From an uncultured Bacteroidia bacterium (GTDB taxonomy: Bacteria > Bacteroidota > Bacteroidia > Bacteroidales > UBA932): DNA of 64,000 nucleotides. Within the stretch, counting starts at the first letter, position 1; every line of letters starts with the position of its first letter. Below are positions 1-20,701 of the stretch, piece by piece. Location: NCBI GenBank assembly GCA_902792815.1, contig CADBAY010000008.1:1-64000 (forward strand), given 5' to 3'. Below the pieces are notes generated by a model. It did not search any database. It worked only from the letters and a program-made list of their open reading frames with translations, and was not told the origin of the DNA. Made by a program: the position numbers and the translations under genes.

Positions 1-77
1 GCTTCCGCAAATGCTGCCGCAGGAGACGCCATCAACCCTGCGAGCAAAAGACCCGTCATTGCTTTTTTCCAAGCCAC
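1..77 (-). CDS. Partial exported protein (signal peptide only)
   Basis: A GTG at 77 opens a frame that reads to the window edge and encodes about 25 residues: a short Lys-Lys start, a run of Leu, Gly and Ala, and an Ala-rich end ending in Ala-Phe-Ala-Glu, as in a cleavable signal peptide. A purine-rich GGAGAG lies just upstream on the minus strand. The mature protein is outside the window, so its function cannot be told. It lies 32 bases downstream of the frameshifted gene at 110-390 and may share its transcript. An internal ATG at 59 is the alternative start. Confidence 0.4.
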   Translation of the reverse strand, partial: MAWKKAMTGLLLAGLMASPAAAFAE

Positions 78-109
78 TTCTCTCCACCCTTTCTACCAAG
101 AATTGCCGT

Positions 110-390
110 TCAATCTCCATGTACACACCCTTCCTCCATTTCAAAGGACTCCTCACCTTCATACAGCAAGGAGAAGTACTGCTGGGCAGAAACATAGGAC
201 ACGCTGTCTTCCCCTGCCACATTGTAGACCCGCATGGTGGCGTATGTATCAAGCCGGCTTTGATACACCCGGGAGTCAAAGGTGCCGGTCACCTCTGCAG
301 CCTCGCCAGGGGCCGGGCCCCGGACAAGAGCAGCCAGCCTGTCAGCAGGCCGCAAAGCAATCTTTTCGTCAGTTTTTTCCTGTGCATCAT
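110..390 (-). pseudogene. Small secreted protein with a frameshift
   Basis: An ATG at 390 follows a good GGAGG ribosome binding site and encodes a signal peptide (Lys-rich start, then a Leu-rich core), but that frame stops after about 33 residues. A second frame, open from about 355 down to 110, encodes a compact acidic domain rich in Tyr, Ser and Glu of about 75 residues that looks like the mature part. The two frames meet in a GC run (GGGGCCCGGCCCC), so one base gained or lost there would join them. This may be a real frameshift or a sequencing error. I do not recognise the family. It follows budA on the same strand. Confidence 0.4.
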
Positions 391-462
391 TCGTTCCTCC
401 AACCTTCAGCCTTCACACCGTCAAAGCGGCAGAGAATTATCCCAGGGAAAATCCACCTGTTT

Positions 463-1308
463 TCAATTTTCTCCCTGCAATTTTCCCTTGGTATCCTGCT
501 CTGCGCTTCTGATGTCTTCCTTCATGTCCTTGGCCAGATTGAGTTCATGGAACTTCTTGTCATCATGCAGGATCAGGGTGAACTTGTCCGTCTGGTCAAG
601 ATATGCCGTGGCGTTTTGCAGAGAAAGCTCCAGGATATGTCCGCCCTTCTTTTTGTCAGCCGAAAGGAAATGGAAATGCCAGCCGACAGAGTTGAGTTCT
701 CCCATATAGCTGGGGCAGTACAGGCCCACCAAGGTGCCCTTGATGTTTTGCTCGGTAAACTCCGTCTGCTTGCCTTTCAGCGCCTCTACCAGGGTGGGAT
801 AAGGTTCCTGGCTGCCGTATTCGCTGCGAAACAGGATAGAGGAGAATTCGGCGGGGAGTTTCACCATGTAAAAGCTGTTGGCGCCGTGCTGCCGAACAGC
901 CTCGTTCAAGGCGTTCTCCAAAGCCGCCTTATCCTTGACATTTTCCAGCTTGACGGCAATATCCTTATCAAAAAAAGTCACATTGGAAAAGGGGATAATC
1001 GTTTCGTCGGGGCACACAATCACGCGCCCATCCCCCAAGGCCTGATAAACAGTGCCGTCCAGCACGATCATCTCGCCGTTTAGCCCCTCGAAAGTTCCAA
1101 TCCCCGTATCGCCAAAGGTGCGGAGCTGCCCGGCCGTAACCGTGCCGCCGAAGTATCCCTGCGCCAGAGACTGCAAGAGCGCCACCTGGGCAATGCTCTC
1201 CCGGTCTGCCCTAGCAGCATAAGCAGACGAGGCCCCCATCCCTGCGCCGATTGCCACCGTACCGGCCAAAACAGCTGCCATAAGTTTCTTTTTGAAGTCA
1301 AATTTCAT
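463..1308 (-). CDS. budA: Acetolactate decarboxylase with signal peptide
   Basis: This enzyme decarboxylates alpha-acetolactate to acetoin, a pH-neutral fermentation branch. The 281-residue protein has the family's zinc site: His-x-His in GWHFHF near residues 209-211 and a third His in GGHIL eleven residues later, the usual spacing. The start at 1308 was chosen over upstream in-frame codons because AAAGGAG sits ten bases before it and the first 32 residues form a signal peptide ending in Ala-Tyr-Ala-Ala. An exported form of this enzyme is less common than the cytoplasmic one. The strong ribosome binding site and style of the protein point to a Firmicute rather than the Bacteroidales of the rest of the window. 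Confidence 0.9.
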   Translation of the reverse strand: MKFDFKKKLMAAVLAGTVAIGAGMGASSAYAARADRESIAQVALLQSLAQGYFGGTVTAGQLRTFGDTGIGTFEGLNGEMIVLDGTVYQALGDGRVIVCPDETIIPFSNVTFFDKDIAVKLENVKDKAALENALNEAVRQHGANSFYMVKLPAEFSSILFRSEYGSQEPYPTLVEALKGKQTEFTEQNIKGTLVGLYCPSYMGELNSVGWHFHFLSADKKKGGHILELSLQNATAYLDQTDKFTLILHDDKKFHELNLAKDMKEDIRSAEQDTKGKLQGEN

Positions 1309-1433
1309 GTCTATCATTCTCCTTTCATAGCAAACCTCAAAAGCTGTATCATGCCCACATATTCGACTTTGATGAAGTAAAATCCTGTCTGCGCCCCATT
1401 TCCCTGCCGCCATGCAGTTTGTTCATGGCATCA

Positions 1434-1491
1434 TAAAATAAAAGAGCGCAAGGAAAAAGGCGATTGGCAGACCGCCTGATTCCTTGCGCTC
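1434..1491 (-). terminator. Hairpin terminator after the STAS gene remnant
   Basis: A perfect 12-base inverted repeat (1444-1455 with 1480-1491) encloses a second short stem (AGGCG with CGCCT). On the minus strand it is followed by a T-rich run at 1434-1443. It lies between the STAS remnant and budA, both on the minus strand, so it would end the upstream transcript before budA. A weaker hairpin lies at about 1512-1533. Confidence 0.65.
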
Positions 1492-1562
1492 AAAATTGTT
1501 GTATTTTGCCGCCCTCACTTATAGAAGCGAGGGACCTCTTGTACTCGTTATGATGGAAAGGG

Positions 1563-1664
1563 TCAGGTTTTTGAACCCTCCACAATGTGGATGATGCGGT
1601 CAAAGTTCGTCATCTCAAAGACTTCCATCACCGTTTCCTGGGGATAGAGCATTTTTAGTTTAGC
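1563..1664 (-). pseudogene. C-terminal fragment of a STAS-domain (anti-sigma antagonist-like) protein
   Basis: The minus-strand frame ending with TGA at 1563 encodes about 33 residues with the pattern KMLYPQETVMEVFEMTNF followed by a hydrophobic strand and a short tail. This matches the last helix and strand of STAS proteins of the SpoIIAA type. The rest of the domain is missing: the frame meets a stop at about 1701-1703 and the sequence upstream of about 1664 does not look like STAS. The gene is therefore truncated at its 5' end, and the break may be another DNA junction. Identification rests on this short match. Confidence 0.45.
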
Positions 1665-1736
1665 AGGAATTACGGCTATGAGCGAAGAATATAAATAGCT
1701 TTAAGAAGATATGATGTAAAGCTGGGTGAGCGTATT

Positions 1737-1898
1737 ATGAGCAGAAAATTCACTTTTGATTTTATACAAAAATTTCATAGCCCCATTTGTGTGAACGCTT
1801 TTCTGAAGGGACTGGACGAAAACGGCATTTCCTATGATTTTCAAGATGGGGTATTGGAGGAACCTTCGAATATGAGGGATATATCATCGTTATGCTGA
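1737..1898 (+). CDS. Small ORF of unknown function
   Basis: An ATG at 1737 opens 53 codons with a plausible residue mix (an aromatic-rich front, then acidic residues). I do not recognise it. Near its end, shifting the frame by one base gives a continued reading that runs through the symporter's ribosome binding site, so this could be the broken tail of a longer gene. The stop lies 15 bases before the symporter start. It may be a remnant and is reported with low confidence. Confidence 0.22.
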   Translation: MSRKFTFDFIQKFHSPICVNAFLKGLDENGISYDFQDGVLEEPSNMRDISSLC

Positions 1899-1905
1899 AA
1901 GGAGG
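1898..1905 (+). promoter_or_regulatory. Strong Shine-Dalgarno site setting a TTG start
   Basis: AAAGGAGG ends eight bases before the TTG at 1914, a textbook Firmicute spacing. No ATG in the symporter frame lies in a suitable place, so this site decides the start. Sites of this strength are absent from the Bacteroidales part of the window. Confidence 0.7.
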
Positions 1906-1913
1906 AATTTTGC

Positions 1914-3161
1914 TTGCAAGACAAACAACAACCCAAATATAGTTTATCTACCAAAATTTTGCTTTCGTTACTACTGGCCTTGATATTGGGCTTTATAGCG
2001 GATCCCGCTTGTCTGCCTTTCGTAAATCAGTGGATCGCTCCTTTGGGAATTATGTTTATAAATCTCATCAAAATGATGATTGTTCCCTTGATATTTTCAT
2101 CTATCATAGCCGCTGTGACCAGTTTGCATGAGCCGCAAAAATTAAAACGCATAGGACTCTCCACAATCGGTCTTTACCTTCTTACAACACTCGCAGCCAT
2201 CGCTATAGGTCTATTCGTGGCAAATATCATAAAACCGGGAATCGGCGTTTCACTCCCGGGAGATGCGCAAATATCCGAAAAATCAGCGCCTGCCCTTATG
2301 GATACATTGGTAGGTCTTATCCCGGCAAATCCGGTGGCGGCTATGGCAAACGGGGAAATATTGCCACTCATCGTTTTTTCGTTGTTTTTAGGTATGAGTA
2401 TCTTAAAAATGGGAGGCGAGAAGGGGAAGCTCCTTGCAAATTTCTTTGCGGCTTGCGCCGAAACATCCTATACATTGATAGGGATTATAATGAAATTTAC
2501 ACCTATAGGAGTTTTCGCTCTGCTTTTTCCCATCATTGTGCAAAGCGGCGTTGACATTGTCCTGCCGCTTATATCGCTTATCGGCTCCGTAGCGCTTGGC
2601 TGTCTTTTGCATGGACTCGTTACTTACGGAGCGTTGCTCAAATTTTTGAGTAAAATGAGTCCGCTTAGATTTTTCAGAAACATATTTGAAGCCATGACGG
2701 TTGCCTTTACCACCGTGTCCAGTGCAGCCACGCTTCCAATCAATATGAAAAACTGTCAGGACAATTTGAAGCTTCGTCCCGAAATCGTCAGCTTCGTTTT
2801 GCCTCTGGGCGCCAATATCAATATGGACGGCACAGCGATATACATCGGAGTAAGTACGATTTTTGCGGCAAACTTATATGGAGTGGATTTTTCTTGGGGG
2901 CAAATGCTTATCATAGTTTTAACCGGCACCCTAGGTTCCATTGGCGCTGCCAGCGTACCTGGGACAGCCGTTATCATGCTGGCTACTGTTTTGCAGTCGG
3001 TGGGATTGCCTCTTGAAGCGATTGCCATTATTGCCGGCGTGGTCAGGGGGAGTGATTCGTTTATCGCGGTGGGCGATACGCGCATAGAGGATTACGACAG
3101 GGTGGCTATCTTCGCCCTGCCGCAGACCATCAAAGAGATAGACAAATTCTTTAAGATATAG
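1914..3161 (+). CDS. Chimeric ORF: dicarboxylate/amino acid:cation symporter joined to TrkA tail
   Basis: Residues 1 to about 376 are a DAACS-family (GltP/DctA-like) sodium or proton symporter: N-terminal membrane helices, a Ser-rich re-entrant loop (TVSSAATLP), the conserved ANINMDGTA helix and the second hairpin (GAASVPGTA). The family then needs a last helix (DRxxDMxRTxxNVTGD) that binds cation and substrate. Here it is absent. From about base 3043 the frame encodes instead the end of a TrkA RCK_C domain (GDTRIEDYDRVAIFALP and a Lys-Phe-Phe end). The 415-residue product cannot be a working symporter. The TTG start is set by a strong ribosome binding site. The front half is richer in A and T than the genes that follow and looks Firmicute. 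Confidence 0.85.
   Translation: MQDKQQPKYSLSTKILLSLLLALILGFIADPACLPFVNQWIAPLGIMFINLIKMMIVPLIFSSIIAAVTSLHEPQKLKRIGLSTIGLYLLTTLAAIAIGLFVANIIKPGIGVSLPGDAQISEKSAPALMDTLVGLIPANPVAAMANGEILPLIVFSLFLGMSILKMGGEKGKLLANFFAACAETSYTLIGIIMKFTPIGVFALLFPIIVQSGVDIVLPLISLIGSVALGCLLHGLVTYGALLKFLSKMSPLRFFRNIFEAMTVAFTTVSSAATLPINMKNCQDNLKLRPEIVSFVLPLGANINMDGTAIYIGVSTIFAANLYGVDFSWGQMLIIVLTGTLGSIGAASVPGTAVIMLATVLQSVGLPLEAIAIIAGVVRGSDSFIAVGDTRIEDYDRVAIFALPQTIKEIDKFFKI
3043..3161 (+). pseudogene. trkA: C-terminal end of a Trk potassium uptake regulator
   Basis: The last 39 codons of the chimeric ORF match the final strands of the TrkA C-terminal (RCK_C) domain, which ends TrkA proteins of the Trk potassium uptake system on the inner face of the membrane. 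The stop overlaps the 3' end of the convergent flavoprotein gene by 11 bases, a tight natural-looking arrangement, so this tail probably belongs to the Bacteroidales chromosome. The remaining ~400 residues of TrkA, and any trkH, are missing to the left. Confidence 0.7.
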
Positions 3162-4533
3162 AAGCCGCTGCGCTCTGTCCCGCAAGGTAGCCGGTGCAGA
3201 AGGCCAGCTGAAGGTTGTAGCCTCCGGTGTCGGCATCTATGTCAACGGTCTCCCCGCAAAAATACAGGCCGCTAATCTTGCGCGACTCCAGGGTCTTGGG
3301 AACAAGGTCGTCGGTGGCCACTCCGCCGGCTGTTACTACAGCCCTTTCCCAGCCGACGAAGCCTGTGATTTTGAAGCGCCAGCATTTCAGCGCCTTGGCT
3401 ATGCTTACGAGGTTAACCCAGACTTTTGTGTCGGTGCGGCTGCGTCTCTCCAAAGTTATTACCTCGGGGTGAGCCGCCATGAACGCAGGAATCAGTTCCC
3501 AGGGAATAAGCTTGCCGAGCAGTATGCGGCAGCGCTCTTTCTCACGCAGGCGGGCCGATCGCGGGTCACGGCCAATCTGCTCCCAGAGTTCTTTAATGCG
3601 TGTAGAGAGTTCGGTCAGGGAGACTCCGCTCTTAAGGTCCAGTTCCAGAGATACTTTTGATCCTCCGAGCAAAGATTTGACTGCCTTGCGGCTGAGCTGG
3701 AAGCCGACGGGACCTTCTATGCCTCCGTCGGTAAAGTCAATGTCGCCGAACTCGTCTCCCGCCAGGGTATCCTGCACCAGAAGGCGAGCCCCGATATTCT
3801 TTAGCGATACTCCGCATAGTTTCTGGCCGAACTCGGAGAGGGGAGTCTCGCGCGGAATGTGGTGCGGCATCGTGGGATTGACAGGGGCACCGTCTTTATA
3901 GCCTTCAGGGACGAGCGCCGTGAGTGAAGGGAAAGTGGGCGTGATGTGGTGAGACAGAGCTTCGGCCCATCGCAGCCCGTCACCGGTCGATCCTGTGCCC
4001 GGATAAGTGAGGCCGCCGGTGGCTATGATTAGGCGGGAACACTTGTGGACGGTGCCGTCGGCGAGTTCGACACTGAATGACGGTGCGTCTCCTGAAGCCG
4101 ACCGGGCGATTGCCGATACTTCCGCTTCGGTCTCGATTTTCACTCCCGCACCAAGGCATTCGCGCACGAGAGTGTCCACCACATCCGATGAACGGTATGA
4201 TGCCGGGAAGGCCCTGTCGCCGCGTTCTACGACAGTGGGCATTCCGGCCGACTCAAAAAAGTCTATTACCCTCTGCGGTGGAAAACTCCGCCATGCGGGG
4301 CGGACGAACTGTGCGCCGCTGCGTATGTGGGCGGCGAATGCTTCCCAGTCTTTCAAGTTGGTGAAGTTGCACCGTCCTTTGCCTGTAATCATTATTTTGC
4401 GCCCTGCCCGTGGCATCTTCTCTATCAAGCAGATACGGGCGTAAAGCCCTTTTCGCGCAGCTGTAGATGCGGCCGACCAGGCTGCCATCAGACCCGAGGC
4501 TCCGCCTCCTATGACTATGATGTCGTACTTCAT
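3151..4533 (-). CDS. BaiN/HI0933-family FAD-dependent oxidoreductase
   Basis: This 460-residue flavoprotein has an N-terminal Rossmann motif (IVIGGGASGLMAA, near residues 6-18), the KMPRAGRKIMITGKGRCNFTN region typical of the YhiN/HI0933 family, and a C-terminal FCGETVDIDADTGGYNLQ segment that closes the FAD site. The family includes BaiN-type reductases of unsaturated steroids, but most members have no proven substrate, so only the flavin-dependent oxidoreductase role is secure. It is transcribed alone from a promoter at 4552-4559. Its 3' end overlaps the trkA tail by 11 bases. Length is normal for the family. Confidence 0.85.
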   Translation of the reverse strand: MKYDIIVIGGGASGLMAAWSAASTAARKGLYARICLIEKMPRAGRKIMITGKGRCNFTNLKDWEAFAAHIRSGAQFVRPAWRSFPPQRVIDFFESAGMPTVVERGDRAFPASYRSSDVVDTLVRECLGAGVKIETEAEVSAIARSASGDAPSFSVELADGTVHKCSRLIIATGGLTYPGTGSTGDGLRWAEALSHHITPTFPSLTALVPEGYKDGAPVNPTMPHHIPRETPLSEFGQKLCGVSLKNIGARLLVQDTLAGDEFGDIDFTDGGIEGPVGFQLSRKAVKSLLGGSKVSLELDLKSGVSLTELSTRIKELWEQIGRDPRSARLREKERCRILLGKLIPWELIPAFMAAHPEVITLERRSRTDTKVWVNLVSIAKALKCWRFKITGFVGWERAVVTAGGVATDDLVPKTLESRKISGLYFCGETVDIDADTGGYNLQLAFCTGYLAGQSAAASIS

Positions 4534-4551
4534 TTGTTAATAAAATGTTGA

Positions 4552-4559
4552 CAAATATA
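4552..4559 (-). promoter_or_regulatory. Bacteroidota -7 box for the flavoprotein gene
   Basis: The minus strand reads TATATTTG, a perfect TAnnTTTG box, 18 bases before the ATG of the flavoprotein gene. No clear -33 TTTG was found at the expected distance. It lies back to back with the promoter at 4569-4600. Confidence 0.55.
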
Positions 4560-4568
4560 GTCATTCTT

Positions 4569-4600
4569 TTTGGTCGCGAGGGGATTTGTACTTAACTTTG
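4569..4600 (+). promoter_or_regulatory. Bacteroidota promoter for the small ORF and lipoprotein
   Basis: TTTG at 4569-4572 and TAACTTTG at 4593-4600 are separated by 20 bases, matching the Bacteroidota consensus in both boxes and spacing. The small ORF at 4635 starts 34 bases after the -7 box. Confidence 0.7.
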
Positions 4601-4634
4601 TAGGTTGTGGAAATAATAATACCAATTTTATATT

Positions 4635-4775
4635 ATGTCAATTAAAAACAAATCATTTGACGCTGCGGTTTATACCGCACCTGACTGTGACGTCTGCGCA
4701 CTCCTCTCAGACGTCATAATCTGCCAAAGTGCTACTACAGAGGACTGGGTTATTGATGAAGGCGGTAATTTCTAG
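4635..4775 (+). CDS. Small peptide (46 aa) coupled to a surface lipoprotein
   Basis: The 46-codon frame has a promoter of its own and ends four bases before the lipoprotein ATG at 4780. The peptide has no signal sequence. It contains a Tyr-Thr-Ala-Pro block followed by Cys-Asp-Val, a hydrophobic middle with two further Cys, and an acidic Asp/Glu tail with Trp. The separate ORF at 33468-33617 has the same plan in the same position before a related lipoprotein, which supports it being real. Short peptides with this plan occur widely before surface lipoproteins in Bacteroidales as far as I know, but I know of no proven function. A leader peptide, chaperone-like partner or secreted peptide are all possible. 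Confidence 0.6.
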   Translation: MSIKNKSFDAAVYTAPDCDVCALLSDVIICQSATTEDWVIDEGGNF

Positions 4776-4779
4776 AGCT

Positions 4780-7455
4780 ATGAAAAAGTTTTTTGCCGCC
4801 ATGGGATTGATGATGGCAGCCATCGTCTCCCTCGTCAGTTGCCAGCCCAAGGAGATATTCTCCGAGACCCGCACCATGACAATCACCGCATCTTCCGACC
4901 TTACCAAAACCACCAATGACGGTATGAGTACTTTATGGGCGGAAGGTGACCAGCTTCATGTTTTCTACAGCAACGGCTCTACCTATGAAAAGGCCGGTGT
5001 GTTTACTCTGAGTGAGGGAAATGGTTCTGTCTCTGCTACTTTTACCTGCGAGAGTGCCAAGACTCCTTCCGGCTCTGCCACCTGGTATGCTATCTATTCT
5101 GGCGCGTCAACTGCCGTTCCTGCCACTCCTGCCGGCTCCGTCGACGGTGACGGATATGTTTTCTTGGGCCGCAGTAACGGAATCGACCAGCCTGTTTATG
5201 GCGATATGAGCAAGGTAGCTGCTTCTCACTGCCCTATGTACGGTGTGGCACAGAATGTATCCTCTGGAGCTACTCCTGCTTTCAGCATGAAGCAGATTGC
5301 ATCTGTCATCGAATTCAATGTGGTCAACAATACTTCCGGTACCCTCGTGGTCAATTCCCTGCAACTTGTTGAGACTGTGGACATTGCTGGACAGTATTAC
5401 CTTGATGTGACTTCAAGTGAACCTGTGCTGACAGGTGTGAGCGGCAAGACCATCAACAATCCACTTGTCCGTATAAAGACTCCTACTGAGCTTGCGGCAG
5501 GTGCAAGTGCAAAGATATACATGCCGGTCAAGCCTTTCAAACACGCTCTTACTGCCGGCATGGAGGTTGTGGTCAGCGGCTCGATCGGCGGTAAAGTGGG
5601 TAGCAAGACATTCTCTCTTACCCCTTCGAATGACGCCCAGGCGACCTTCGCCCCCGGCAAGATCAAAACCGTCACTGTTAATGTTACCGGGCTTGACGTA
5701 GCGACGGAAAGTAATACTGTTAAAGAAGTTCTAAACGGTGATCCTAATACCGACTATCTGGTTGAGAACGCACTTGTTACTTTGGTCTATGCCAAGGGCT
5801 TCTTCGTGACCGACGGCACAGGAACCATCCTGGTATTCACAAACGATGCTCCTGCCGTCAAGAAGGGCGACAAGGTTTCCATTTCCGGACAAATCTCAAC
5901 CTATAGTGGCATGACTCAGTTTAACAGGCCTGCTGTTACTGTGCTGTCTTCCAACAATAATGTCTCTTTGAGTGCCGTTGCATGGTCCAAGGAAGAAATC
6001 GACGAAGCTTCGACCGACGCTACCTGCGAGTATGTTTCCCTTGAAGCCGCTGCTTTCTCAAGCGCAACTTCAGCTGTGTTAAAAGATGCAGCCGGCAACA
6101 ACAGTGCTACTATCTCTATGACTGCTGCCACCGATCCTGCCGTTACCCTTGCCAAAGGCACTTTTGACGTAACCGGATACGTGTATGGCTGCTATAAAGA
6201 TAAGGTGTATATGTATGTCGATAGTGCTGTAGAGCATCAGGACACACCTCCGGTGGTTGAAGGGACCGAGGTTTCCATGACTATGAAGCAGTATCAAGAG
6301 GGACATAACTGCACCCTTTCTGCCGGAACTGAAGTAGTCAAGTACAAAGTTCTTGACCTTTCTTCGGCAGTCCGTATGATGACCAACGGAGTGAGCTCCA
6401 ACGGCGGTTCTTTCTGGACTTCAGGCGATAATGTCCAGTGGCGGCTCTATCAGGGCGGTCCCGACAATCTGACCGTCAAGGTTGCCAGCGGCTGCCAACT
6501 TAAATCGGTTAAGATTACCTATGCTTCTCAGAATGGTGGAGTCCTTGTGGATGGCGCTGGTAGTAAAGTAGAAAGCAATAATGAGGTAAGTGCTTCAGGC
6601 ACCTCGGTCGTGTTTGTTGTTGGCAATACTACTGAAGGAGGTGCAAACGGCCAGGTTAGGGTTACAGCTGTTACGATAGTCTACACCGGCAGCGGAACTC
6701 TCCCTCCCGAGCCTGATGAACCGGCCGAAGAAATTGAAACCAAGATTACCATGGCCGGCAACATGACGGTTTACATCGGTGAGACCGGGGAGTTGAACGC
6801 TACATCCAATGTTTCGGGCGCAACCATTAACTATAGCAGTGAGGATACGTCAATTGCCACAGTATCTTCTTCTGGCGTTGTTACAGGCGTAGCTGAAGGT
6901 ACCGTTAAGGTTTATGCTCGCATTACCGGTGTCTCCGGTCAGTATACCGATGCAGAGCGTTACTGCAACGTCACTGTCTCCGCCAAGCCGACTCCTACCA
7001 CAGGAACTTGGATAGAAACATCCTTAGCCAGCATTTCAGATGGCGCTCAGATAGTAATTGTGGGCAAAGCCGGTGAAACTCTTTATGCAATGGCTAATGA
7101 TAAGGGAACAGGATCCGCTCCAACTGCAGTCGTGGTAAGTGTGAGTGGTACAAAACTCGCCTCTGCTCCGGCCTCAAATCTTGTTTGGACTTTGAAAAAA
7201 GATACTGCCGGGTATAAGTTCAACGCCTCTAATGACAACTATCTGTATGCAACAGACTCGAATAATGGGTTGCGAGTGGGTACTAACACCAACAATGTTT
7301 TCTCACTTGATAGCACTGGCTATCTGGCTATCAAGATTAATGAAACTACTACTAGGTACGTGGGTGTTTATACCACTAATCCCGATTGGCGTTGCTATAC
7401 CAGTACTACCACAAATATCAAGGAGCAGACCTTCACTTTCTATGTAAAGCAGTAA
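4780..7455 (+). CDS. Large multidomain surface lipoprotein (fimbrillin-like, Big_2)
   Basis: The 891-residue protein starts with a lipoprotein signal peptide with Cys at about residue 21 (SLVSC), placing it on the outer membrane and probably the cell surface. About residues 30-310 form a fimbrillin-like beta domain (TKT near the start, then a WAEGDQLHVFY pattern shared with the lipoproteins at 31931 and 33619). About 320-500 look like OB-fold strands (GFFVTDGTGTILVF). A jelly-roll-like region follows, then a bacterial Ig-like Big_2 domain near 660-745 and a C-terminal beta domain. A start at 4780 was chosen because it gives the signal peptide. Role is probably adhesion or glycan binding, which is inference. 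A strong terminator follows. Confidence 0.75.
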   Translation: MKKFFAAMGLMMAAIVSLVSCQPKEIFSETRTMTITASSDLTKTTNDGMSTLWAEGDQLHVFYSNGSTYEKAGVFTLSEGNGSVSATFTCESAKTPSGSATWYAIYSGASTAVPATPAGSVDGDGYVFLGRSNGIDQPVYGDMSKVAASHCPMYGVAQNVSSGATPAFSMKQIASVIEFNVVNNTSGTLVVNSLQLVETVDIAGQYYLDVTSSEPVLTGVSGKTINNPLVRIKTPTELAAGASAKIYMPVKPFKHALTAGMEVVVSGSIGGKVGSKTFSLTPSNDAQATFAPGKIKTVTVNVTGLDVATESNTVKEVLNGDPNTDYLVENALVTLVYAKGFFVTDGTGTILVFTNDAPAVKKGDKVSISGQISTYSGMTQFNRPAVTVLSSNNNVSLSAVAWSKEEIDEASTDATCEYVSLEAAAFSSATSAVLKDAAGNNSATISMTAATDPAVTLAKGTFDVTGYVYGCYKDKVYMYVDSAVEHQDTPPVVEGTEVSMTMKQYQEGHNCTLSAGTEVVKYKVLDLSSAVRMMTNGVSSNGGSFWTSGDNVQWRLYQGGPDNLTVKVASGCQLKSVKITYASQNGGVLVDGAGSKVESNNEVSASGTSVVFVVGNTTEGGANGQVRVTAVTIVYTGSGTLPPEPDEPAEEIETKITMAGNMTVYIGETGELNATSNVSGATINYSSEDTSIATVSSSGVVTGVAEGTVKVYARITGVSGQYTDAERYCNVTVSAKPTPTTGTWIETSLASISDGAQIVIVGKAGETLYAMANDKGTGSAPTAVVVSVSGTKLASAPASNLVWTLKKDTAGYKFNASNDNYLYATDSNNGLRVGTNTNNVFSLDSTGYLAIKINETTTRYVGVYTTNPDWRCYTSTTTNIKEQTFTFYVKQ

Positions 7456-7508: not shown

Positions 7509-7551
7509 GCTTATTTACAGTTGTATAGTAGTGGATTTCGCAAAAAATATC

Positions 7552-7559
7552 TATATTTG
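7552..7559 (+). promoter_or_regulatory. Bacteroidota -7 box for the TMEM43-like gene
   Basis: TATATTTG matches the TAnnTTTG consensus and lies 38 bases before the ATG at 7598. No convincing -33 TTTG is seen at the usual distance. Confidence 0.5.
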
Positions 7560-7597
7560 TGAATACGGTTTGCAACAATTCCTAATTCTTTAATATT

Positions 7598-8986
7598 ATG
7601 GCCTATCAAAAAGTAACTACAACCTCCTATGGCGGCCGTCTCAAAAATGCCCTCTCGGGCGTTGGGATGGGATTCGTTATGCTGATTGCCGGTACCGTTC
7701 TTCTGTTCTGGAACGAGGGCCGTACCGTCAAGACTACCAAGATGCTCAAGGAGGCCCAGGGCGTTTGCGTCGAACTGGGCGACATCGAGCAGGTCAATGC
7801 CGACATGAACGGTAAGATGATCCACGCCAGCGGCCTTGCCGCAACCGAGGAAGTTCTCACCGACGGTATGTTCGACATCTCCCTTAATGCCATCAAGCTT
7901 ATCCGCAGCACTGAGTATTATCAGTGGGTTGAGCACCAGAAGTCGGAGACCAGAGACAAAGTCGGCGGCGGTCAGGAGACCATTACCACTTACACCTACA
8001 GCAAGGAATGGGTCAGCAGCCCGGTCAGCTCATCTTCTTTCGAGGATCCTCAGTACAGGGGCATCAACAACGACGTCCTCCTCAAGGTGGAACCTCAGAC
8101 CTGGCAGGCCCAGAACGTATCTTTCGGCGCTTACACCTTCCCTGAGGGCCTCATCTCCCAGATGAACAACAGCGAGCCCCTCACCGTGGAGCTTAAGCCC
8201 GAGGTTACCGAGTTCTTCGAGAAAGAGTTCCACAGAGTATATGATGTGTCCGCAAGCGACAGTTTTGTGCATCCTAACGGCAATGTCCTCTATCTGGGAC
8301 TTAATCCCAACAACCCCAAGGTGGGTGATGTAAGAGTTACTTACAAGAAGGTCCTCCCCGGTGAGGTGTCTATCCTTGCCAAGGTTAACGGCAACACCTT
8401 CGAGAAGTTCACTGCCAAGAACGGTTACAGCATGATGACCCTCGAGGACGGTACCGTGAGCATGGACGAGATGTTCGCCACTGAGCACGCTTCCAACAAG
8501 ACCATGGCCTGGATCCTTCGTCTGATCGGATTCCTGCTCATCTTCTTTGGTTTCAAGAACATCTTCAACATCATTACCCAGCTTCTCAAGGTGCTCCCGT
8601 TCCTTGCCAATATCGCCGACCTTGGTATCAACCTGGTAGCAGGTGTTCTGGCAATTGTATGGACCCTGGTTGTCATTGCTGTCGCATGGCTGTTCTACAG
8701 GCCTGTGCTCGGCATTATCCTGCTGGTTATCGCCGGTGCTCTTATCTGGTTCCTGGGTAAGAAGAGTAAAGAGAAGAAGGCTCAGCTTGACGCTCAGGCA
8801 GCAGCCGCTCCCGCAGCACCTGCAGCAGCACCCGTTCAGCCTGCGGCTCCTGTACAGCAGGCTCCTCCTGCAGCAGCACCCGTACCTCCGGCCGCTCCTG
8901 CACCCGAGTATCCCGAGCCTCCGGCACCGGATTTCTCCGATGCTCCCGCTCCTCCGCCCGAATTCCCGGACGCTCCCGTTGAGTAA
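7598..8986 (+). CDS. TMEM43 family membrane protein with Pro/Ala-rich tail
   Basis: The 462-residue protein has the layout of TMEM43 (LUMA) proteins: one N-terminal membrane helix (about residues 22-40, ending in LLFWNEGR, a family signature), a large non-cytoplasmic domain of about 270 residues, and three closely spaced C-terminal helices (about 305-385). The last 70 residues are Pro and Ala rich with repeated PAAP-like units and an acidic end, probably a flexible cytoplasmic tail. The family is known from eukaryotic nuclear envelope and ER membranes and is scattered in bacteria, where its role is not established. It is transcribed alone and flanked by terminators on both sides. Confidence 0.8.
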   Translation: MAYQKVTTTSYGGRLKNALSGVGMGFVMLIAGTVLLFWNEGRTVKTTKMLKEAQGVCVELGDIEQVNADMNGKMIHASGLAATEEVLTDGMFDISLNAIKLIRSTEYYQWVEHQKSETRDKVGGGQETITTYTYSKEWVSSPVSSSSFEDPQYRGINNDVLLKVEPQTWQAQNVSFGAYTFPEGLISQMNNSEPLTVELKPEVTEFFEKEFHRVYDVSASDSFVHPNGNVLYLGLNPNNPKVGDVRVTYKKVLPGEVSILAKVNGNTFEKFTAKNGYSMMTLEDGTVSMDEMFATEHASNKTMAWILRLIGFLLIFFGFKNIFNIITQLLKVLPFLANIADLGINLVAGVLAIVWTLVVIAVAWLFYRPVLGIILLVIAGALIWFLGKKSKEKKAQLDAQAAAAPAAPAAAPVQPAAPVQQAPPAAAPVPPAAPAPEYPEPPAPDFSDAPAPPPEFPDAPVE

Positions 8987-9056: not shown

Positions 9057-9962
9057 ATGATCAATACCGTGCATCAGAACAAAGCATTCGGATTCGTCGT
9101 ACTGCATTATCTTGCATACGGTATGACCCGCCGCTGCGTGGATGTGCTGCTGAGTACATTCAAGGATGAGCCTATAAGGATTGTAGTGGTGGACAACGCT
9201 TCTCCTGACGGCAGCGGCGACAAGTTGGAAGAAGATTATGCAGAATCGTCAAACGTAACTGTTCTGCGCAATTCATCCAACCTGGGTTTTGCCCGCGGTA
9301 ATAACGAAGGCTATAACTATCTGCTCAAGGAAGGGGAGTGCAGGTTCATTGCTGTAATAAACAATGATGTACTCATTCAGGACTCCGGATTCATATCCAG
9401 GGTAAGTGCTGTTTATTCCGAGACCGGTTTCGCCGTGCTGGGGCCGGATATAGTGAACCCCTCCGACGGACGGCACCAGAACCCGGCGCACCTTGAGGGT
9501 TTTACCCGTGAGGATCTGACTGCCCTCCGCGACAAGCTGACCGATGATCTGGATCATTTCCGGTGGAAGCGTTTCAAATGGAATATAAAGTGCCGCTTTT
9601 TCCCGTTCCTTATCCGCCGTAAGGCTGTGGAAACGCCGCCTGTGGTGGACCGCAGGGAAGGGGTTGTACTGCATGGAGCCTGTTACGTGTTCTCGCCGCT
9701 TTTTCTGTCGGCAAGGAGGGAGTGTTTCAATCCGTCGACTTTCTTATATCTGGAGGAGGACATCCTGCATTATGAATGTATGCGGGACGGGCTGAAGATG
9801 CTTTATGAGCCATCGCTGCAGGTGCTGCATCTTGAAGACGTATCGTCACGCGAGGCCTTCGGATCGAAGGATGCGATAGATGCCTTCAAGTTCAAAGAAT
9901 CATTGAAGTCAATTGAAGTGCTGCTCGCGCTGATGGAGGGGAATAAAAAAAGAGCAGGATAA
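9057..9962 (+). CDS. Family 2 glycosyltransferase
   Basis: The 301-residue protein has a GT2 (GT-A fold) domain: a VVVDNASPDGS nucleotide-binding segment near residues 42-52, an NLGFARGNN motif near 75-83, and an Asn-Asn-Asp metal site (VINNDV) near 99-104. It transfers a sugar from a nucleotide donor, probably rhamnose-like, to a growing surface glycan at the inner membrane. The acceptor is unknown. Its last three codons lie inside the tRNA-Gly gene on the other strand. It is separated by that tRNA from the flippase, so the surface glycan genes here are not one operon. Confidence 0.85.
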   Translation: MINTVHQNKAFGFVVLHYLAYGMTRRCVDVLLSTFKDEPIRIVVVDNASPDGSGDKLEEDYAESSNVTVLRNSSNLGFARGNNEGYNYLLKEGECRFIAVINNDVLIQDSGFISRVSAVYSETGFAVLGPDIVNPSDGRHQNPAHLEGFTREDLTALRDKLTDDLDHFRWKRFKWNIKCRFFPFLIRRKAVETPPVVDRREGVVLHGACYVFSPLFLSARRECFNPSTFLYLEEDILHYECMRDGLKMLYEPSLQVLHLEDVSSREAFGSKDAIDAFKFKESLKSIEVLLALMEGNKKRAG

Positions 9963-10023
9963 GGGAGTCGAACCCTCCTCCTTGGCTTGGGAAGCCAATG
10001 CACTACCGATGTGCTAATCCTGC
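9953..10023 (-). tRNA. tRNA-Gly (anticodon CCC)
   Basis: The minus strand folds into a 71-base cloverleaf. The acceptor stem pairs GCAGGAT (from 10023) with ATCCTGC (9954-9960). The anticodon stem is TTGGC/GCCAA with loop TTCCCAA, giving CCC at 9991-9989, which reads GGG glycine codons. A T-arm with GTTCGACT is present. CCA is not encoded. The 3' acceptor strand overlaps the end of the glycosyltransferase gene. A promoter lies directly upstream. Confidence 0.95.
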
Positions 10024-10033
10024 TTGTGGGATG

Positions 10034-10064
10034 CAAATATACGAATTTTTTGTATCTTCGCAAG
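10034..10064 (-). promoter_or_regulatory. Promoter for tRNA-Gly
   Basis: On the minus strand CTTG (10061-10064) and a perfect TATATTTG (10034-10041) are 19 bases apart, and the tRNA 5' end lies ten bases further on. The region overlaps the promoter of the divergent flippase gene. Confidence 0.65.
10053..10060 (+). promoter_or_regulatory. -7 box next to the flippase start
   Basis: TATCTTCG (one base off TAnnTTTG) ends seven bases before the ATG at 10068, which would give an almost leaderless message. Its position inside the divergent tRNA promoter means the two probably compete. Confidence 0.4.
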
Positions 10065-10067
10065 GTC

Positions 10068-11624
10068 ATGCCCGAGATTTCTGAAAACAGCCGCCGCATA
10101 GCGCGAAATACAGTCTTGCTATACTTCAGGATGCTGCTCCTGATGTGCATCGGCCTTTTCACTTCGCGGGTGGTGCTGAATTCTCTTGGGGTGGAAGACT
10201 ATGGCATCTATGGTGCCGTGGGCGGTGTGGTGATGCTGTTTACCATTGTCACAAACTCCGTCTCCCAGTCGGTCAGCCGTTACATAACCTGGAATCTGGG
10301 CCGTTGCCCTGCCGATGATATGTCCGCCAAAGACTCGGTGCTCCATCGGGTATTCTCTACAGCAGTGCTGATGCAGCTTATTTTCTGCGGCCTGCTGCTG
10401 GTGCTTACCGAAACGGCCGGCCTGTGGTGGGTCAATACCAAAATGAACATCCCCCCTGACCGTTATCCCGCCGCTAACTGGGTGCTTCAATGCTCAATGG
10501 GCGTTCTGATGGTGAATCTTTTGAGCGTTCCGTTCAATTCATCTATCATCTCTCATGAGCGTATGGACATCTTTGCCTTGGTTAGCCTGGGCGAGGCATT
10601 GCTAAAGCTGGGAGTAGCCCTGTTGATCTTTTTCTCTCCGGTCGACAAACTCAAGTTGTACGCCACATTGATGCTTGCGGTTGCCATTCTTGTGCGTATG
10701 TGCTACGGGCTTATTTGCCACCGCCTCTTCCCGGAAACCCGGGGGAAGGTAGTGTTTGACCGGAAACTCTTGCACGAAATGACCGGTTTTGCCGGATGGG
10801 CCGTCCTGGGCAGCAGCACTTACGTTGTCAATACGCAGGGCGTCACCCAGCTGGTGAATGTCTTTTTCGGCGTCGCCGTCAATGCCGCCCGCAGCGTGGC
10901 GATGCAGGTGGAGAATATTGTCAAGCAGTTCTCCAACAACATCATCACAGCACTTAATCCGCAGATTACCAAGTCTCTGGCCTCCGCCGACAAAGGCTAT
11001 TGCTTCGAGCTTGCCGGAAAGGGAATCAAGTACACGGGACTGATTCTGCTCCTTCTTGGCATACCTCTCTTCCTGGAAGCTCCTGAACTGCTTCGCTTGT
11101 GGCTGAAAAACGTTCCTGAAGGTAGCATCGTATTTACCCGTCTTACCGTTATCTGCATATTTGTGGATACACTTTTCAATCCGCTGGTTACCATTATTCA
11201 GGCGGACGGACGCATTAAGGGCTTCTATATTATTACGGCTCTGGTGTCGCTGCTGTGCTTTTCGCTTTCGTGGGTGGCTTTCGCCGCCGGCGCGCCTGCA
11301 TACGTGTCATATATCTTCTATGCCCTTGTGTATCTGCTGCTGGATATACTCCGTATCATTTACGCCAGGAGGCTTGCCGGCATGCCGTTTTTGCCTTTGC
11401 TCAAAGACTCGTTGCTGCCGGTGATGCTGGCCGGCCTGCTGGGCGCATCCCTCCCGGTGCTGCTGCATTTCACCTTGCCTGTGGGTGCGTGGAGGGTGCT
11501 TGCCGTGCTGATGGCCACACTTCTGTGTTTCCTTCCCGCGTGTTGGTTTATCGCGCTTACCGGCGGCGAGAGACAATTCGCCTTGCGCGCAATCTGCCGC
11601 AATAAATCCCGTTCGGACGAATGA
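10068..11624 (+). CDS. Polysaccharide flippase (MOP superfamily, Wzx-like)
   Basis: The 518-residue protein is almost all membrane helices (about 12 to 14) in the arrangement of the polysaccharide transporter branch of the MOP superfamily. It opens with RNTVLLYFRMLL and has the conserved SRVVLNSLGVEDYGIY segment near residues 31-46. It would flip lipid-linked oligosaccharide units across the inner membrane. The start at 10068 was chosen over an upstream in-frame start at 9987 because the upstream codons lie inside the tRNA-Gly gene. Its stop overlaps the next gene by four bases (ATGA), so the two are translationally coupled. Confidence 0.85.
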   Translation: MPEISENSRRIARNTVLLYFRMLLLMCIGLFTSRVVLNSLGVEDYGIYGAVGGVVMLFTIVTNSVSQSVSRYITWNLGRCPADDMSAKDSVLHRVFSTAVLMQLIFCGLLLVLTETAGLWWVNTKMNIPPDRYPAANWVLQCSMGVLMVNLLSVPFNSSIISHERMDIFALVSLGEALLKLGVALLIFFSPVDKLKLYATLMLAVAILVRMCYGLICHRLFPETRGKVVFDRKLLHEMTGFAGWAVLGSSTYVVNTQGVTQLVNVFFGVAVNAARSVAMQVENIVKQFSNNIITALNPQITKSLASADKGYCFELAGKGIKYTGLILLLLGIPLFLEAPELLRLWLKNVPEGSIVFTRLTVICIFVDTLFNPLVTIIQADGRIKGFYIITALVSLLCFSLSWVAFAAGAPAYVSYIFYALVYLLLDILRIIYARRLAGMPFLPLLKDSLLPVMLAGLLGASLPVLLHFTLPVGAWRVLAVLMATLLCFLPACWFIALTGGERQFALRAICRNKSRSDE

Positions 11625-12388: not shown

Positions 12389-13267
12389 TTATTTTTTCTT
12401 CTTTTCCGGAATCAGGAACGCCCCGGCCTTGCGGCTCTTGCGACGCAGTTTCAGAAGCTCGGGATAGCGCTTTATGAGCTTTCCGATAAACTTGAACGGG
12501 GTTCCGTCGAAGTAAAGGCAACCTATCGCCGCAAGGCGCAGCGGCTCTCCGATAAGCCTGAGCAGTTCCCATCCTGCCGGGTTGCTTACGTGGACTATCG
12601 AAGCGTTGCATTTCAAGAACATGCGCTGGTCTTTGTTTGAAGGCCTGTCGGCCCTGTCGTGTACCGCGCTGGCAGCGGGCACGACCCCGCAGAGATAACC
12701 GTTCCAACGGGCTCGGTCGATATAGTTGTCGTCCTCTCCGTACATTATGAAGGCGGGGGAGAAGCCGCCCACCTTTTGCAGACAGCCCCGGCTTATCATC
12801 CAGTGTGAGGCCATCACGAAGGGAACCTCAACTATCTTTTCGTCCTTTTGTTTGCGCAGATAGCTCTTGCACCGTTTTGCAAACTGGCGGTCCATCTTCT
12901 TGCCGCTTCCGTCGAGCTGGACCGGACTGAGAATCCCATAGCGGCCGTCTTCCATTGCTTCGGTCAGCAGGCGGAAGGTGCCGGGCTCCACCCAGGCGTC
13001 CTGATTGAGCAGGTAAACGTAGCTGTAGCCCTCTTCCAGGGCCCTTCGCATACCCAAGTTGTTGGCGGCTCCGAACCCCAGGTTATTGCGCTGGGCGAGT
13101 ACTTCTATGTTGTGTCTCTGCAGCCACTCTACCGTACCGTCTGTCGAACCGTTGTCGATGACGAGCAAATCGGCAGGGAGGTCGGAAGAGAGTACGGATG
13201 AAACGCATTTGTCAATCCATTTCATTCCGTTGAAAGTCACTACTATAACCAGGATTTCAGATTTCAT
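12389..13267 (-). CDS. Family 2 glycosyltransferase
   Basis: The 292-residue protein has GT2 motifs: a VIVVTFNGMKWI start, LLVIDNGSTDGT near residues 34-45, NNLGFGAANN near 61-70, and an NQD metal site (LLNQDAW). The GEDDNYIDR segment is like rhamnosyltransferases of the WsbH/RfbF type. The protein ends in a very basic Lys-rich tail, which may hold it to the membrane. Its start overlaps the end of the upstream glycosyltransferase gene by 11 bases, so the pair forms an operon read from the secA-side promoter region. Confidence 0.85.
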   Translation of the reverse strand: MKSEILVIVVTFNGMKWIDKCVSSVLSSDLPADLLVIDNGSTDGTVEWLQRHNIEVLAQRNNLGFGAANNLGMRRALEEGYSYVYLLNQDAWVEPGTFRLLTEAMEDGRYGILSPVQLDGSGKKMDRQFAKRCKSYLRKQKDEKIVEVPFVMASHWMISRGCLQKVGGFSPAFIMYGEDDNYIDRARWNGYLCGVVPAASAVHDRADRPSNKDQRMFLKCNASIVHVSNPAGWELLRLIGEPLRLAAIGCLYFDGTPFKFIGKLIKRYPELLKLRRKSRKAGAFLIPEKKKK

Positions 13268-14162
13268 TGAAGTACTTTATGAAGATTTGCTTGGGAGTGC
13301 GGTGGGTAAAGATGCTCCGGGTATTGTGCTTGTATGTGAGGTAATCCTGCCTGCGCCCCTGTATGAGTGCCTTGATGCGCTTTACCATTTCGGCCGCCCA
13401 GACTCCCGCCCCCAGCACCAGGTAGCGGAGCGAACTGCCGTCGGAAAAGAAAATAAGGCTGCCTCTTATGGAAGCGGGACGCAAAGCGGGGGCGAGACGT
13501 GATGCGGTGGTCCTCCATTTGTGTATCACTTCGGCGTCGGAATCGCACCAGACCGAATAGCCCCTGCGCCTGGCAAGAGTAGAGAGGGCTATGTCTTCGG
13601 GGGTGAAGAAATAGCGCTCGTCGAACCAGCCTAACTCTTTGAAAATGGCAGTTTTAATAAGGAATGCAGCGCCGCTTACGTTGAACGTGCGGAACAGTCC
13701 TTTGCCGTTGTCGGTAGGCTCGCTGTACAGGTGCCATTGCTGCAGTACATAGCGGAATGGGGGATAGTCGGGGCGTCCGCAAAGTTGCAGCGAACCATCG
13801 GCATTGAGCAGCTTGGCTGCCACTATGGCGGCGTCCGGAGGAAGGGCGCTGAAGTCTGCGATGAGCCTGTCGATTGTGGGGCCGGGAAGCTCGGTATCGT
13901 CGTTGAGGATGAAGCAGTACTCGCTTTTGACCTCTTTGAGGGCGAGGTTGTTGTTTTCCGAAAAACCGCTTATCGAATTGTTTATGATGAAGTTGACCCA
14001 GGGATAAGCCGCCTTCATGGCTGACAGATTGTCAGTGGAAAAGCGGTATGCAACCACATACACTTCATATTCCGACGTGGTATGCTGTTTGATGCTGTCC
14101 AGGCACGGTCCGAGATTGTCGGGCCGGTTCATACAAACAATTACAATACTTACTGCGGGCAT
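13257..14162 (-). CDS. Family 2 glycosyltransferase
   Basis: This 301-residue GT2 enzyme has an SIVIVCMNRPDNL start, an NNSISGFSENNN segment near residues 70-81 and an Asn-Asp-Asp metal site (FILNDDTE) near 96. A second acidic motif (TPEDIALS) lies near residue 188. It is first in a two-gene minus-strand operon with the enzyme at 12389. The sugar and acceptor are unknown. A -7 box (TACATTTG on the minus strand) lies seven bases before its start codon. Confidence 0.85.
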   Translation of the reverse strand: MPAVSIVIVCMNRPDNLGPCLDSIKQHTTSEYEVYVVAYRFSTDNLSAMKAAYPWVNFIINNSISGFSENNNLALKEVKSEYCFILNDDTELPGPTIDRLIADFSALPPDAAIVAAKLLNADGSLQLCGRPDYPPFRYVLQQWHLYSEPTDNGKGLFRTFNVSGAAFLIKTAIFKELGWFDERYFFTPEDIALSTLARRRGYSVWCDSDAEVIHKWRTTASRLAPALRPASIRGSLIFFSDGSSLRYLVLGAGVWAAEMVKRIKALIQGRRQDYLTYKHNTRSIFTHRTPKQIFIKYFNEI

Positions 14163-14168
14163 AGTTCA

Positions 14169-14196
14169 CAAATGTACGATATTTTTACTAAATTTG
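14169..14196. promoter_or_regulatory. Divergent promoters between a glycosyltransferase operon and secA
   Basis: The minus strand carries TACATTTG (14169-14176), seven bases from the glycosyltransferase start. The plus strand carries TAAATTTG (14189-14196), 25 bases from the secA start. Both fit the Bacteroidota -7 consensus; -33 boxes are weak. Confidence 0.6.
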
Positions 14197-14221
14197 CCCG
14201 ATTTAGTACTTATTAACAACA

Positions 14222-17200
14222 ATGGCATTAGCTGACATTATTAAAAAGATCTTCGGCTCCAAGGCAGACCGCGATTACAAAGCCGTAAAGCCGACACTCC
14301 AGAAAATACTTGCTGTATATCCCGAGATAGACGCTCTTTCCAACGACGACCTCCGTTCCCGCAGCGCCGCACTCCGCGAGCGTCTGCGCGAGGTTGAAAA
14401 GCCTTTCGAGGACCGTATCGCCCAGATAACGGAAGAGCTTGGTAAAGATATTCCCATTTCCGATAAGGAAAAACTCGCCACCGAATCGGACAAGCTGGTC
14501 AAAGACGAGGACGAGGCCATCGAGAAGTGCCTTACTGAAATACTCCCCGAGGCATTCGCCATAATGAAGAGCACTGCCCGCCGACTGAAGGAGAACGAGT
14601 ATATCGAGGTAACAGCCAACCAGTTTGACCGCGACATAAGCGTCAACCACGATTTTGTCAAGATAGACGGCGACAAGGCCATTTACTGCAATCATTGGGT
14701 GGCCGGCGGTAACGAGGTGACCTGGGACATGGTACATTACGACGTCCAGCTCATAGGCGGTATCGCTTTGCATCAGGGAAAGATAGCCGAGATGGCGACC
14801 GGTGAAGGCAAGACCCTCGTGGCAACCTTGCCGGTGTTCCTTAACGCTCTTGCCGGAAAAGGCGTGCACGTGGTTACCGTTAACGATTACCTCTCCAAGC
14901 GAGACTCCGAGTGGATGGGCCCTCTGTACATGTTCCACGGCCTGAGCGTCGACTGTATCGACAAGCACCAGCCTAATTCCGACGCACGCAAGAGGGCATA
15001 CGACTGCGACATTACTTTCGGTACCAACAACGAGTTCGGTTTCGACTACCTTCGTGACAACATGGCCGTCACCAAGGAAGACCTGGTGCAGCGCAAGCAT
15101 CACTATGCGATTGTGGACGAGGTTGACTCGGTGCTCATCGACGATGCCCGTACTCCTCTCATCATTTCCGGTCCCGTGCAGAAGAGCACCGACGACGATG
15201 CCCAATACACTGAGTACAAGCCCTATGTGGAGCGGATGTATCTGGCTCAGAGGCAGTTGGTCAATCAGTGCCTGAACGAGGCCAAGAAGCTTATCGCCGC
15301 GGGCGACGAGCGCGAGGGCGGAAAACTCCTTCTGCGTGCCCATAAGGGTCTTCCCAAGTACCAGCCGCTTATCAAATACTTGTCGGAGCCGGGAATCAAA
15401 GTCATTCTCCAGAAGACCGAGAACTATTATATCCAGGACAACGAAAAAGAGATGCCCGTCATTACGGATCCTCTGTATTTCGTTATCAACGAGCAGCTTA
15501 ACTCCGTCGTCAAGACTGACAAGGGCGATGCGATGCTCTCGTCGGCAGTGGGCAACGAAGACTTCTTCGTGCTTCCCGACGTGGGCGCACGTACCGCCGA
15601 GATCATGCAGGGAGAGGGGACTCCCGCGCAGAAGCAGGAGCGCAAGGACGCCCTGATGGAGGAGTTCTCCCTCAAGAGCGAGCGCGTGCATGTGGTTGAG
15701 CAGCTGCTCAAGGCATATGCAATGTTCGAGAAGGATGTGGACTACATCATTTCCGAGGACGGCAAGATCAAGATAGTTGACGAGAGTACCGGCCGTATCA
15801 TGGAAGGACGCCGCTGGAGCGACGGACTGCACCAGGCCGTAGAAGCCAAGGAAAGCGTAAAGGTGGAGGCGGCCACGCAGACCTTCGCCACCATCACTCT
15901 CCAGAACTATTTCCGTATGTACCATAAGCTTGCCGGTATGACCGGTACTGCCGAAACGGAAGCGGGCGAGTTCTGGAGCATCTACAAGCTCGACGTGATG
16001 GTCATCCCGACCAACCGTCCGGTAATCCGTGACGACCAGGACGACCGCATCTATAAGACCAAGAAGGCCAAGTATGCAGCCGTCATCGACAGGGTGGCGG
16101 AACTTTCTGCCGCAGGACGCCCTGTGCTTGTGGGTACTACGGACGTTGAAACTTCCGAGCTCTTGTCGAGAATGCTCCGTATGAGGGGTATCCGTCACAA
16201 TGTGCTGAATGCCAAGGAGCACGCACGCGAGGCCGAGATAGTTGGGCAGGCCGGACAGAGTTCCACGGTTACCATTGCCACTAACATGGCAGGACGTGGT
16301 ACCGATATCAAGCTCTCCAACGAGGTCAAGGCCGCCGGCGGTCTTGCTATTATCGGTACCGAGCGCCACGACTCCAGGCGTGTTGACCGTCAGCTCAGGG
16401 GACGTGCCGGAAGGCAGGGTGACCCGGGTTCTTCGACTTTCTATATCTCGCTGGAAGATAAGCTCATGCGCCTCTTCGGCTCGGAGCGTATAGCGGGAAT
16501 GGTCGATAAGATGGGTATGCGTGACGACGAGGCCCTGGTGAGTTCGATGTTGTCGGGCGCCATCGAGAACGCGCAGAAAAAGGTCGAAGAGAACAACTTC
16601 GGTATCCGTAAGCGCCTGCTCGAGTACGACGACGTGATGAACTATCAGCGTGAGGCCATTTACTCGCGCCGTCGCAATGCTATTTCCGGCGAGAAGGTTG
16701 AGATCGACCTTCAGAACATGATGGTAGATACCGCAACCCTTTATGTGGACAAGTGCTCGGGATATACTTGTGACGACTTCCGCGAGAGCCTGATGGCCCG
16801 TTTCTCCATCGACCTCCAGATAACTCCCGAAGAATACGACAAGGCAAAGGATTCCGAGCTTGTGAACCGCATTTGCGAGGAGATGCGCCAGACTTACCGT
16901 CGCCGTATGGATGCCCTTGACGAGAAGCTTTATCCTATCATCAAGGAAGTGTATGAGAAGCAGGGATCGATGTATCAGAACATTGCCATTCCCGTATCCG
17001 ACGGCCGCAAGACTCTTAACCTGTCGGTCAATCTTCAGAAGGCTTATGAGAGCGAGGGCCGCGAGATATCCAAGACCCTCAGCAAGAACATAATACTGTA
17101 TCAGATCGACGAGCACTGGAAGGAGCACCTCAGGGATATGGACGACCTCAAGCAGAGCGTCCAGAACGCCGCATACGAGCAGAAAGATCCTATCGTGGTT

Positions 17201-17500: not shown

Positions 17501-17915
17501 CAAAATCAAAAGTATGACCAAAATATCAGAATCCGTGGATGTAAACTCCGTCAGCAGGATTTCCGACGGAACCCTTATCAAGGGCGAGATTTCTTCTCAC
17601 AGTGATATTCGCGTGGATGGACAGGTTGAGGGCCGCCTGTACTCGGAAGGTCGTGTGGTGGTAGGCGAGAACGCGTCCGTCAAAGGCACCATTCTATGCG
17701 GCGACCTCGACTTGTGGGGCAGTGTAGAGGGTGAGATTTTTGTGCGTAACGTTCTGTCTCTCAAGGGTACGGCATCAGTACTCGGAGACCTTCACGTGCG
17801 TAAGCTCCAGGTTGAAATGGGTGCTTCGGTAAACGGCACCTGCAAAATGATTTCGGAAGAGGATTTCGATGCCAATCTCGGCGTTTCCTCATCTGAGGCG
17901 CCGGAGGTTGAATAA
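17481..17915 (+). CDS. Bactofilin
   Basis: The 144-residue protein has the bactofilin core (about residues 32-125): repeated short beta strands with Gly and Val every few residues (GTLIKGEI, DGQVEGRLYSEGRVVVGE, GSVEGEI), which fold as a right-handed beta-helix and polymerise into filaments used for cell shape and polarity. An ATG at 17481 overlaps the secA end by 20 bases; a second ATG at 17514 is possible. The secA-bactofilin pair ends at a terminator that lies inside the opposite-strand gene. Pairing with secA is likely only transcriptional. Confidence 0.85.
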   Translation: MEKGLFNKIKSMTKISESVDVNSVSRISDGTLIKGEISSHSDIRVDGQVEGRLYSEGRVVVGENASVKGTILCGDLDLWGSVEGEIFVRNVLSLKGTASVLGDLHVRKLQVEMGASVNGTCKMISEEDFDANLGVSSSEAPEVE

Positions 17916-18248: not shown

Positions 18249-18540
18249 TTCGGGCACTTTCCCTCAAATATCGTAGTATAGTTCCGCTGATACAAGGAAC
18301 CGAAAGAAACGTAAATCAAGATTTGCGAAATTTTTTGGTGGTATGATTTTTTTCGGTTAAAGGATCGGCGTATCATTTTTTAAAGGTTGCTCCTCGTTCT
18401 TTAAAAAACGTAAATAAATAGCCTGTAGGGCCGTTTTTCTGCCGAAGATAGGGATAAATGCTTTTCCTTTGCAAACGGAACGAAGGCGCCCGGGCGACGC
18501 CGGGAAGTCCGGATATCCAATTTTAAATTATGAGAAACGT
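18249..18540. other. Intergenic region upstream of ssb-fimbrial operon
   Basis: No gene is seen. The stretch is A/T rich with two copies of AAACGTAAAT in the same direction (in 18308-18318 and 18407-18417). TTCCTTTG at 18464-18471 is an imperfect -7 box. A small GC-rich hairpin (CCCGG/CCGGG near 18489-18505) lies in the probable leader of ssb. No inverted repeats of the kind that flank invertible promoters were found. Confidence 0.4.
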
Positions 18541-18888: not shown

Positions 18889-18894
18889 AACACT

Positions 18895-19920: not shown

Positions 19921-19923
19921 GAT

Positions 19924-20697: not shown

Positions 20698-20701
20698 TGG
20701 T

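Follow-up and report, generated by a model that had tools for sequence, protein, structure and literature searches.

TrkA is the NAD-binding subunit of Trk potassium uptake. A full-length TrkA has about 450 residues with two TrkA_N domains; the protein of G070, the closest relative of the host found in this analysis, has 454 aa with two TrkA_N and two TrkA_C stretches. Functional symporters of the DAACS/SDF family (PF00375) end in a helix with the conserved residues D..D..N...D, which we take, from GltPh, to bind the cation and the substrate. Parts of both proteins are combined in one ORF at the locus described here, and the closest described counterpart of this combination is a class of assembly error. 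The most common error in the CAMI data, according to PMC9661791, is inter-genome translocation, which MEGAHIT produces more often than IDBA_UD does. The locus resembles this class in having different genomes on one contig, a short shared word, and a position near contig ends. It differs only in that the join happens to keep the reading frame, and in that the two halves of the broken gene are both wrongly continued and traceable.

The window, i.e., the whole stretch of DNA analyzed, corresponds to the initial 64 kb of contig C8 (100,580 bp) from a host genome of 2,370,477 bases in 48 contigs. The hybrid ORF (1914-3161, + strand) is 415 aa long. Pfam search assigned the SDF domain (PF00375) to residues 11-383 with 369.1 bits, and a TrkA_C match to residues 370-413 (profile positions 27-70 of 71) with 22.5 bits, which falls below the cut-off of 27 bits. 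An earlier reading of the sequence alone had proposed an in-frame join between a symporter (residues 1-376) and the end of TrkA (residues 377-415), with the final symporter helix missing. All three points were borne out. The frame is open across the join, and the identity to Selenomonas ends at base 3042, with 3043 as the first differing base. The intact symporter of G177, a genome of the genus Selenomonas, has 410 residues, and the window ORF lacks the last 34, which hold DRFTDMFATCLNITGD. At positions 377-392, the Selenomonas symporter reads DRFTDMFATCLNITGD and the window ORF reads VRGSDSFIAVGDTRIE, and the D..D..N...D helix is absent from the latter.

Residues 1-376 (symporter gene, 1914-3042, + strand, cut 34 codons before its end) represent a Selenomonas member of the DAACS/SDF family in which other sequence stands in place of the last 34 residues, including the final helix. 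The C-terminal part of TrkA from the host genus is matched by residues 377-415, with identities of 62.5-90.7% among the seven loci compared; the highest value, over 43 residues, is with the TrkA of the relative G026. The corresponding DNA (3043-3161, + strand) is nt 1247-1365 of the host trkA, or starts from nt 1227 when the shared word is counted. The ORF differs from TrkA in holding only about 39 TrkA_C residues, while the remainder of the gene (nt 1-1194) sits on contig C17.

The left side (1-3042) is a foreign stretch of Selenomonas chromosome. It reaches a contig end, since the window starts at the start of C8. The sequence-only reading had described the ribosome binding sites on this side as Firmicute-style; matches to G177, L009, and L010 narrow the origin to Selenomonas. 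When contigs were scanned with residues 1-376, two loci were found, both from named Selenomonas MAGs: L009 from S. ruminantium RUG12626 and L010 from Selenomonas sp. RGIG9219 ("Water_deer_Rumen"). L009 matches the window at 625-1386, 1316-1441, and 1757-2909, and L010 at 1496-2229 and 2221-3042; the five pieces show 97.6-100% identity, and four of them 99.47% or more. Matches to the left piece were present in all six Selenomonas-genus genomes searched. G177 is collinear over the whole of 1-3042 on a contig of 2,141,647 bases (G177:C8:244547-247579), with identities of 100% for 1-161, 99.5% for 236-1386, and 99.5% for 1316-3042. There are two length differences: G177 lacks window 162-235 (74 nt), and it has the stretch 1316-1386 (about 71 nt) in duplicate. 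With a query extended to 3080, no match past 3042 was listed in the six genomes, in four of which the best 40 of 45-78 first-look candidates were scored. From base 3043, the symporter genes of L010 and G177 run on with DRFTDMFATCLNITGDATVAAVI and a normal last helix. The foreign piece also includes an acetolactate decarboxylase gene (463-1320, - strand; PF03306, 227 bits; TIGR01252, 190.8 bits against a cut-off of 180.65). In tetranucleotide composition, block 1-3000 is at a distance of 0.131 from the Selenomonas locus L056 versus 0.289 from the C8 mean. Composition on its own is weak, as this block is just the third most deviant of 33 C8 blocks, and 69001-75000 deviates more.

Several features of the Selenomonas loci were observed in passing. 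Of the six Selenomonas-genus genomes, four (G175-G178) contain many copies of a repeat of about 55 bp (window 1497-1551), at 79-92% identity. In Selenomonas RGIG9219, an insertion of about 240 bp (L010:734-975) with inverted-repeat-like ends and repeated CAAATATCA interrupts the symporter gene, and looks like a small non-coding mobile element. In S. ruminantium RUG12626, about 3.96 kb (L009:884-4843) with inverted CACTTTACAACTTTT-type ends replaces window 1442-1756. It holds a transposase-like ORF with a weak match to DDE_5, and further ORFs read like a putative amino-acid ABC transporter. The symporter gene of the same genome is broken by an internal deletion that starts at the position of window base 2910 (L009:5996-6020). 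The gene is thus disrupted in two of the three Selenomonas loci read closely (L009 and L010), and intact in G177.

To the right of the join, starting at base 3023, the window shows collinearity with G070. Five window pieces over 300 nt, all within 3023-36109, are found in order on G070:C84 from about 34090 down to 27: 3023-5706 (79.7%), 7540-8970 (90.0%), 9950-11425 (72.9%), 12422-18133 (89.2%), and 18133-36109 (86.9%). SusC/RagA and SusD-like genes are present on contig C8, together with a SecA whose best match is PRK12901, a gene content that presumably fits Bacteroidota. The convergent neighbor of trkA is an HI0933-like flavoprotein gene (3151-4533, - strand; PF03486, 256 bits), with 92% aa identity in G070, where it also adjoins trkA. 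The proposal that the TrkA stop overlaps the next gene naturally holds for the overlap itself, and the adjacency behind it is found in some relatives only. A complete trkA adjoins the flavoprotein gene in G070, G071, G026, G004, and G011. Among the loci of six relatives compared, three show the adjacency, and the other three lack a flavoprotein match in the vicinity of trkA; G128 and G172 have the two genes on different contigs. This neighborhood is not universal in the genus, and that is counted against the explanation preferred below.

The two sides overlap at 3023-3042 (+ strand), where they have a word of at most 20 nt in common. L010 and G177 agree with the window as far as 3042, and the G070 alignment starts at 3023. 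The sequence-only reading had noted a shared sequence at the join; it exists, and is longer than the ten or so bases given for it. Three relatives read AATGCC, AATGCT, or AACGCC where the window and Selenomonas read ATTGCC, and this mismatch limits the word common to the host trkA to at most 20 nt. The figure is an upper bound, since the bases of the host itself to the left of 3043 are not visible. Sixteen nucleotides of the word are identical in the trkA of G026. As a control, 24,816 bp of Selenomonas DNA and 199,658 bp of DNA from the host genus (11 sequence sets), excluding window 1-3042, were compared. The longest common word was a single 16-mer, located at the join site in the trkA of G026. 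Words of 10-16 nt were common to both sets at about the chance rate (e.g., 42 observed vs. 37 expected for 14 nt, 1 vs. 2.3 for 16 nt). Such a join thus does not require the genes to be related.

The decisive evidence is on contig C17, which holds the remaining part of the host trkA. Searching the host genome with the TrkA of G026 gave two hits, a full-length one (C17:81429-82787) and the C8 fragment. The host gene is divided between the two contigs, with nt 1-1194 close to the C17 end, nt 1227-1365 at the start of C8, and only 32 nt missing. G070 carries the whole trkA region on one contig, C84, which matches C17 and then C8. C17:58001-82755 aligns to G070:C84 from 57790 to 33991 in five ordered gapped pieces (65.7-89.3%) plus one off-diagonal piece. 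The C17 gene stays with G070 no further than nt 1194, with 88.0% identity over the 4.6 kb that precede the switch. Starting at nt 1174, its sequence equals that of a third genome, G097, for 335 nt without a mismatch, with 97.0% identity over 2018 bp. This is a second chimera in the same genome, in which the switch falls within a 21-nt word (L017:4603-4623; G000:C17:82602-82622). No ungapped identity between the two trkA genes is longer than this word, and G070 has 18 of its 21 bases. Past the switch, C17 runs into an ABC ATPase gene (PF00005), which is the trkA neighbor in G097 and G086. The last ~550 nt of C17 have no match in the compared loci of G097 and G086; the continuation into G097-type DNA is therefore not fully explained, which also counts against the explanation preferred below. 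A second natural trkA copy, as the full-length hit might suggest, was rejected: C17 switches to G097-type DNA within the gene. All nine relatives searched, comprising those with the best DNA matches and some others, gave a single trkA match each, which makes two natural copies unexpected. Mis-binning of C8 as a whole is also unlikely, as C8 3023-36109 and C17 are collinear with one G070 contig.

These comparisons make it almost certain that the fusion is an inter-genome assembly chimera, in which Selenomonas was joined to Bacteroidota, here an unrelated rumen-type bacterium. Of microhomology-mediated rearrangement, transfer, and assembly chimera, the sequence-only reading had favored the last, and the Selenomonas left side, the G070-collinear right side, and the other half of trkA on C17 support it. 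The two sides come from different genomes, and each keeps the order of its parent as far as the join (G177 to 3042, G070 from 3023); the shared words have the length of about k-1 bases expected of a chimera (at most 20 nt here and 21 nt in C17), and the true continuation, trkA nt 1-1194, is elsewhere in the assembly. Both parents of each join are demonstrated, as is the placement of the C17 and C8 regions on one contig in G070. The metagenome assembly would have lost the path through the host trkA over about 32 nt. Each side would then have been continued through a word of ~20-21 nt that a different organism in the sample also has. C8 would have run into the Selenomonas symporter gene, with 3.0 kb of foreign DNA reaching the end of the contig, and C17 into the trkA-ABC locus of a second species of the genus, which accounts for about 2.0 kb of its final 2.5 kb. 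The open frame across the join would be luck, at about one in three. Two facing wrong continuations across 32 nt, at words of about 20 nt and each within 2.5-3.0 kb of a contig end, fit a short-k assembly graph at a site that it resolves poorly, and hardly fit natural transfer. A small-k assembler presumably made the joins; k = 21, which is suggested by the word length, would need a 20-nt overlap. We infer that all three organisms were present in one sample.

Real recent transfer, in which Selenomonas DNA was joined to trkA through microhomology-mediated illegitimate recombination, is very improbable. Such joining would also leave a shared word like the one of up to 20 nt, and the near-identity to living Selenomonas would suit a very recent event. 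However, transfer needs a second, independent natural join of the other trkA half to a third genome 32 nt away, and two independent natural insertions at trkA are very unlikely; both joins also lie near contig ends. In the search of the genus, 119 of 151 genomes were matched with the best three first-look candidates per genome scored, and among the matches listed in the 150 members other than the host, none spans the join or starts before window 3019 (query base 279). A variant is rated slightly lower still, in which a subpopulation would have taken up the Selenomonas DNA by microhomology-mediated joining at a broken trkA, and this spot would be prone to natural breakage and would have undergone recombination with a sister species as well. 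A working fusion of the symporter with the RCK end, kept by selection, has the open frame in its favor and is nevertheless close to inconceivable, as the protein would be without the last symporter helix and with only ~39 TrkA residues, and the join is spanned by no match in 60 relatives, nor by any match listed in the 150 genus members or the six Selenomonas-genus genomes.

The same 415-aa ORF in relatives, which had been named as evidence against a chimera, was not found in the 60 relatives or among the matches listed in the 150 genus members. No match in the 60 relatives extends from the symporter part beyond residue 387. A true fusion family, looked for in the same two sets, was likewise not found. 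Among viral contigs, with the symporter part as query, 21 stretches fitted a pattern and none was a relative.

The fused gene is almost certainly not real, and the class of error is already well known. Annotation of the 415-residue ORF as a gene is not warranted, and bases 1-3042 should be excluded from the host genome. The host genome bin is 97.44% complete with 0.65% contamination, and the locus is a traced example of a good bin carrying an in-frame chimeric gene at a contig end. Annotation would take the chimeric gene for intact, and it could be read as a gene fusion or a cross-phylum transfer. Here the chimera was diagnosed from relatives alone, without reads. Elsewhere on the same contig and beyond the window, C8:89515-100580 (L035) is 98.4% identical to G070:C82:1-11066, compared with 73-90% over 3023-36109. 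These last 11 kb of C8 may represent either a recent exchange or another genome mixture.
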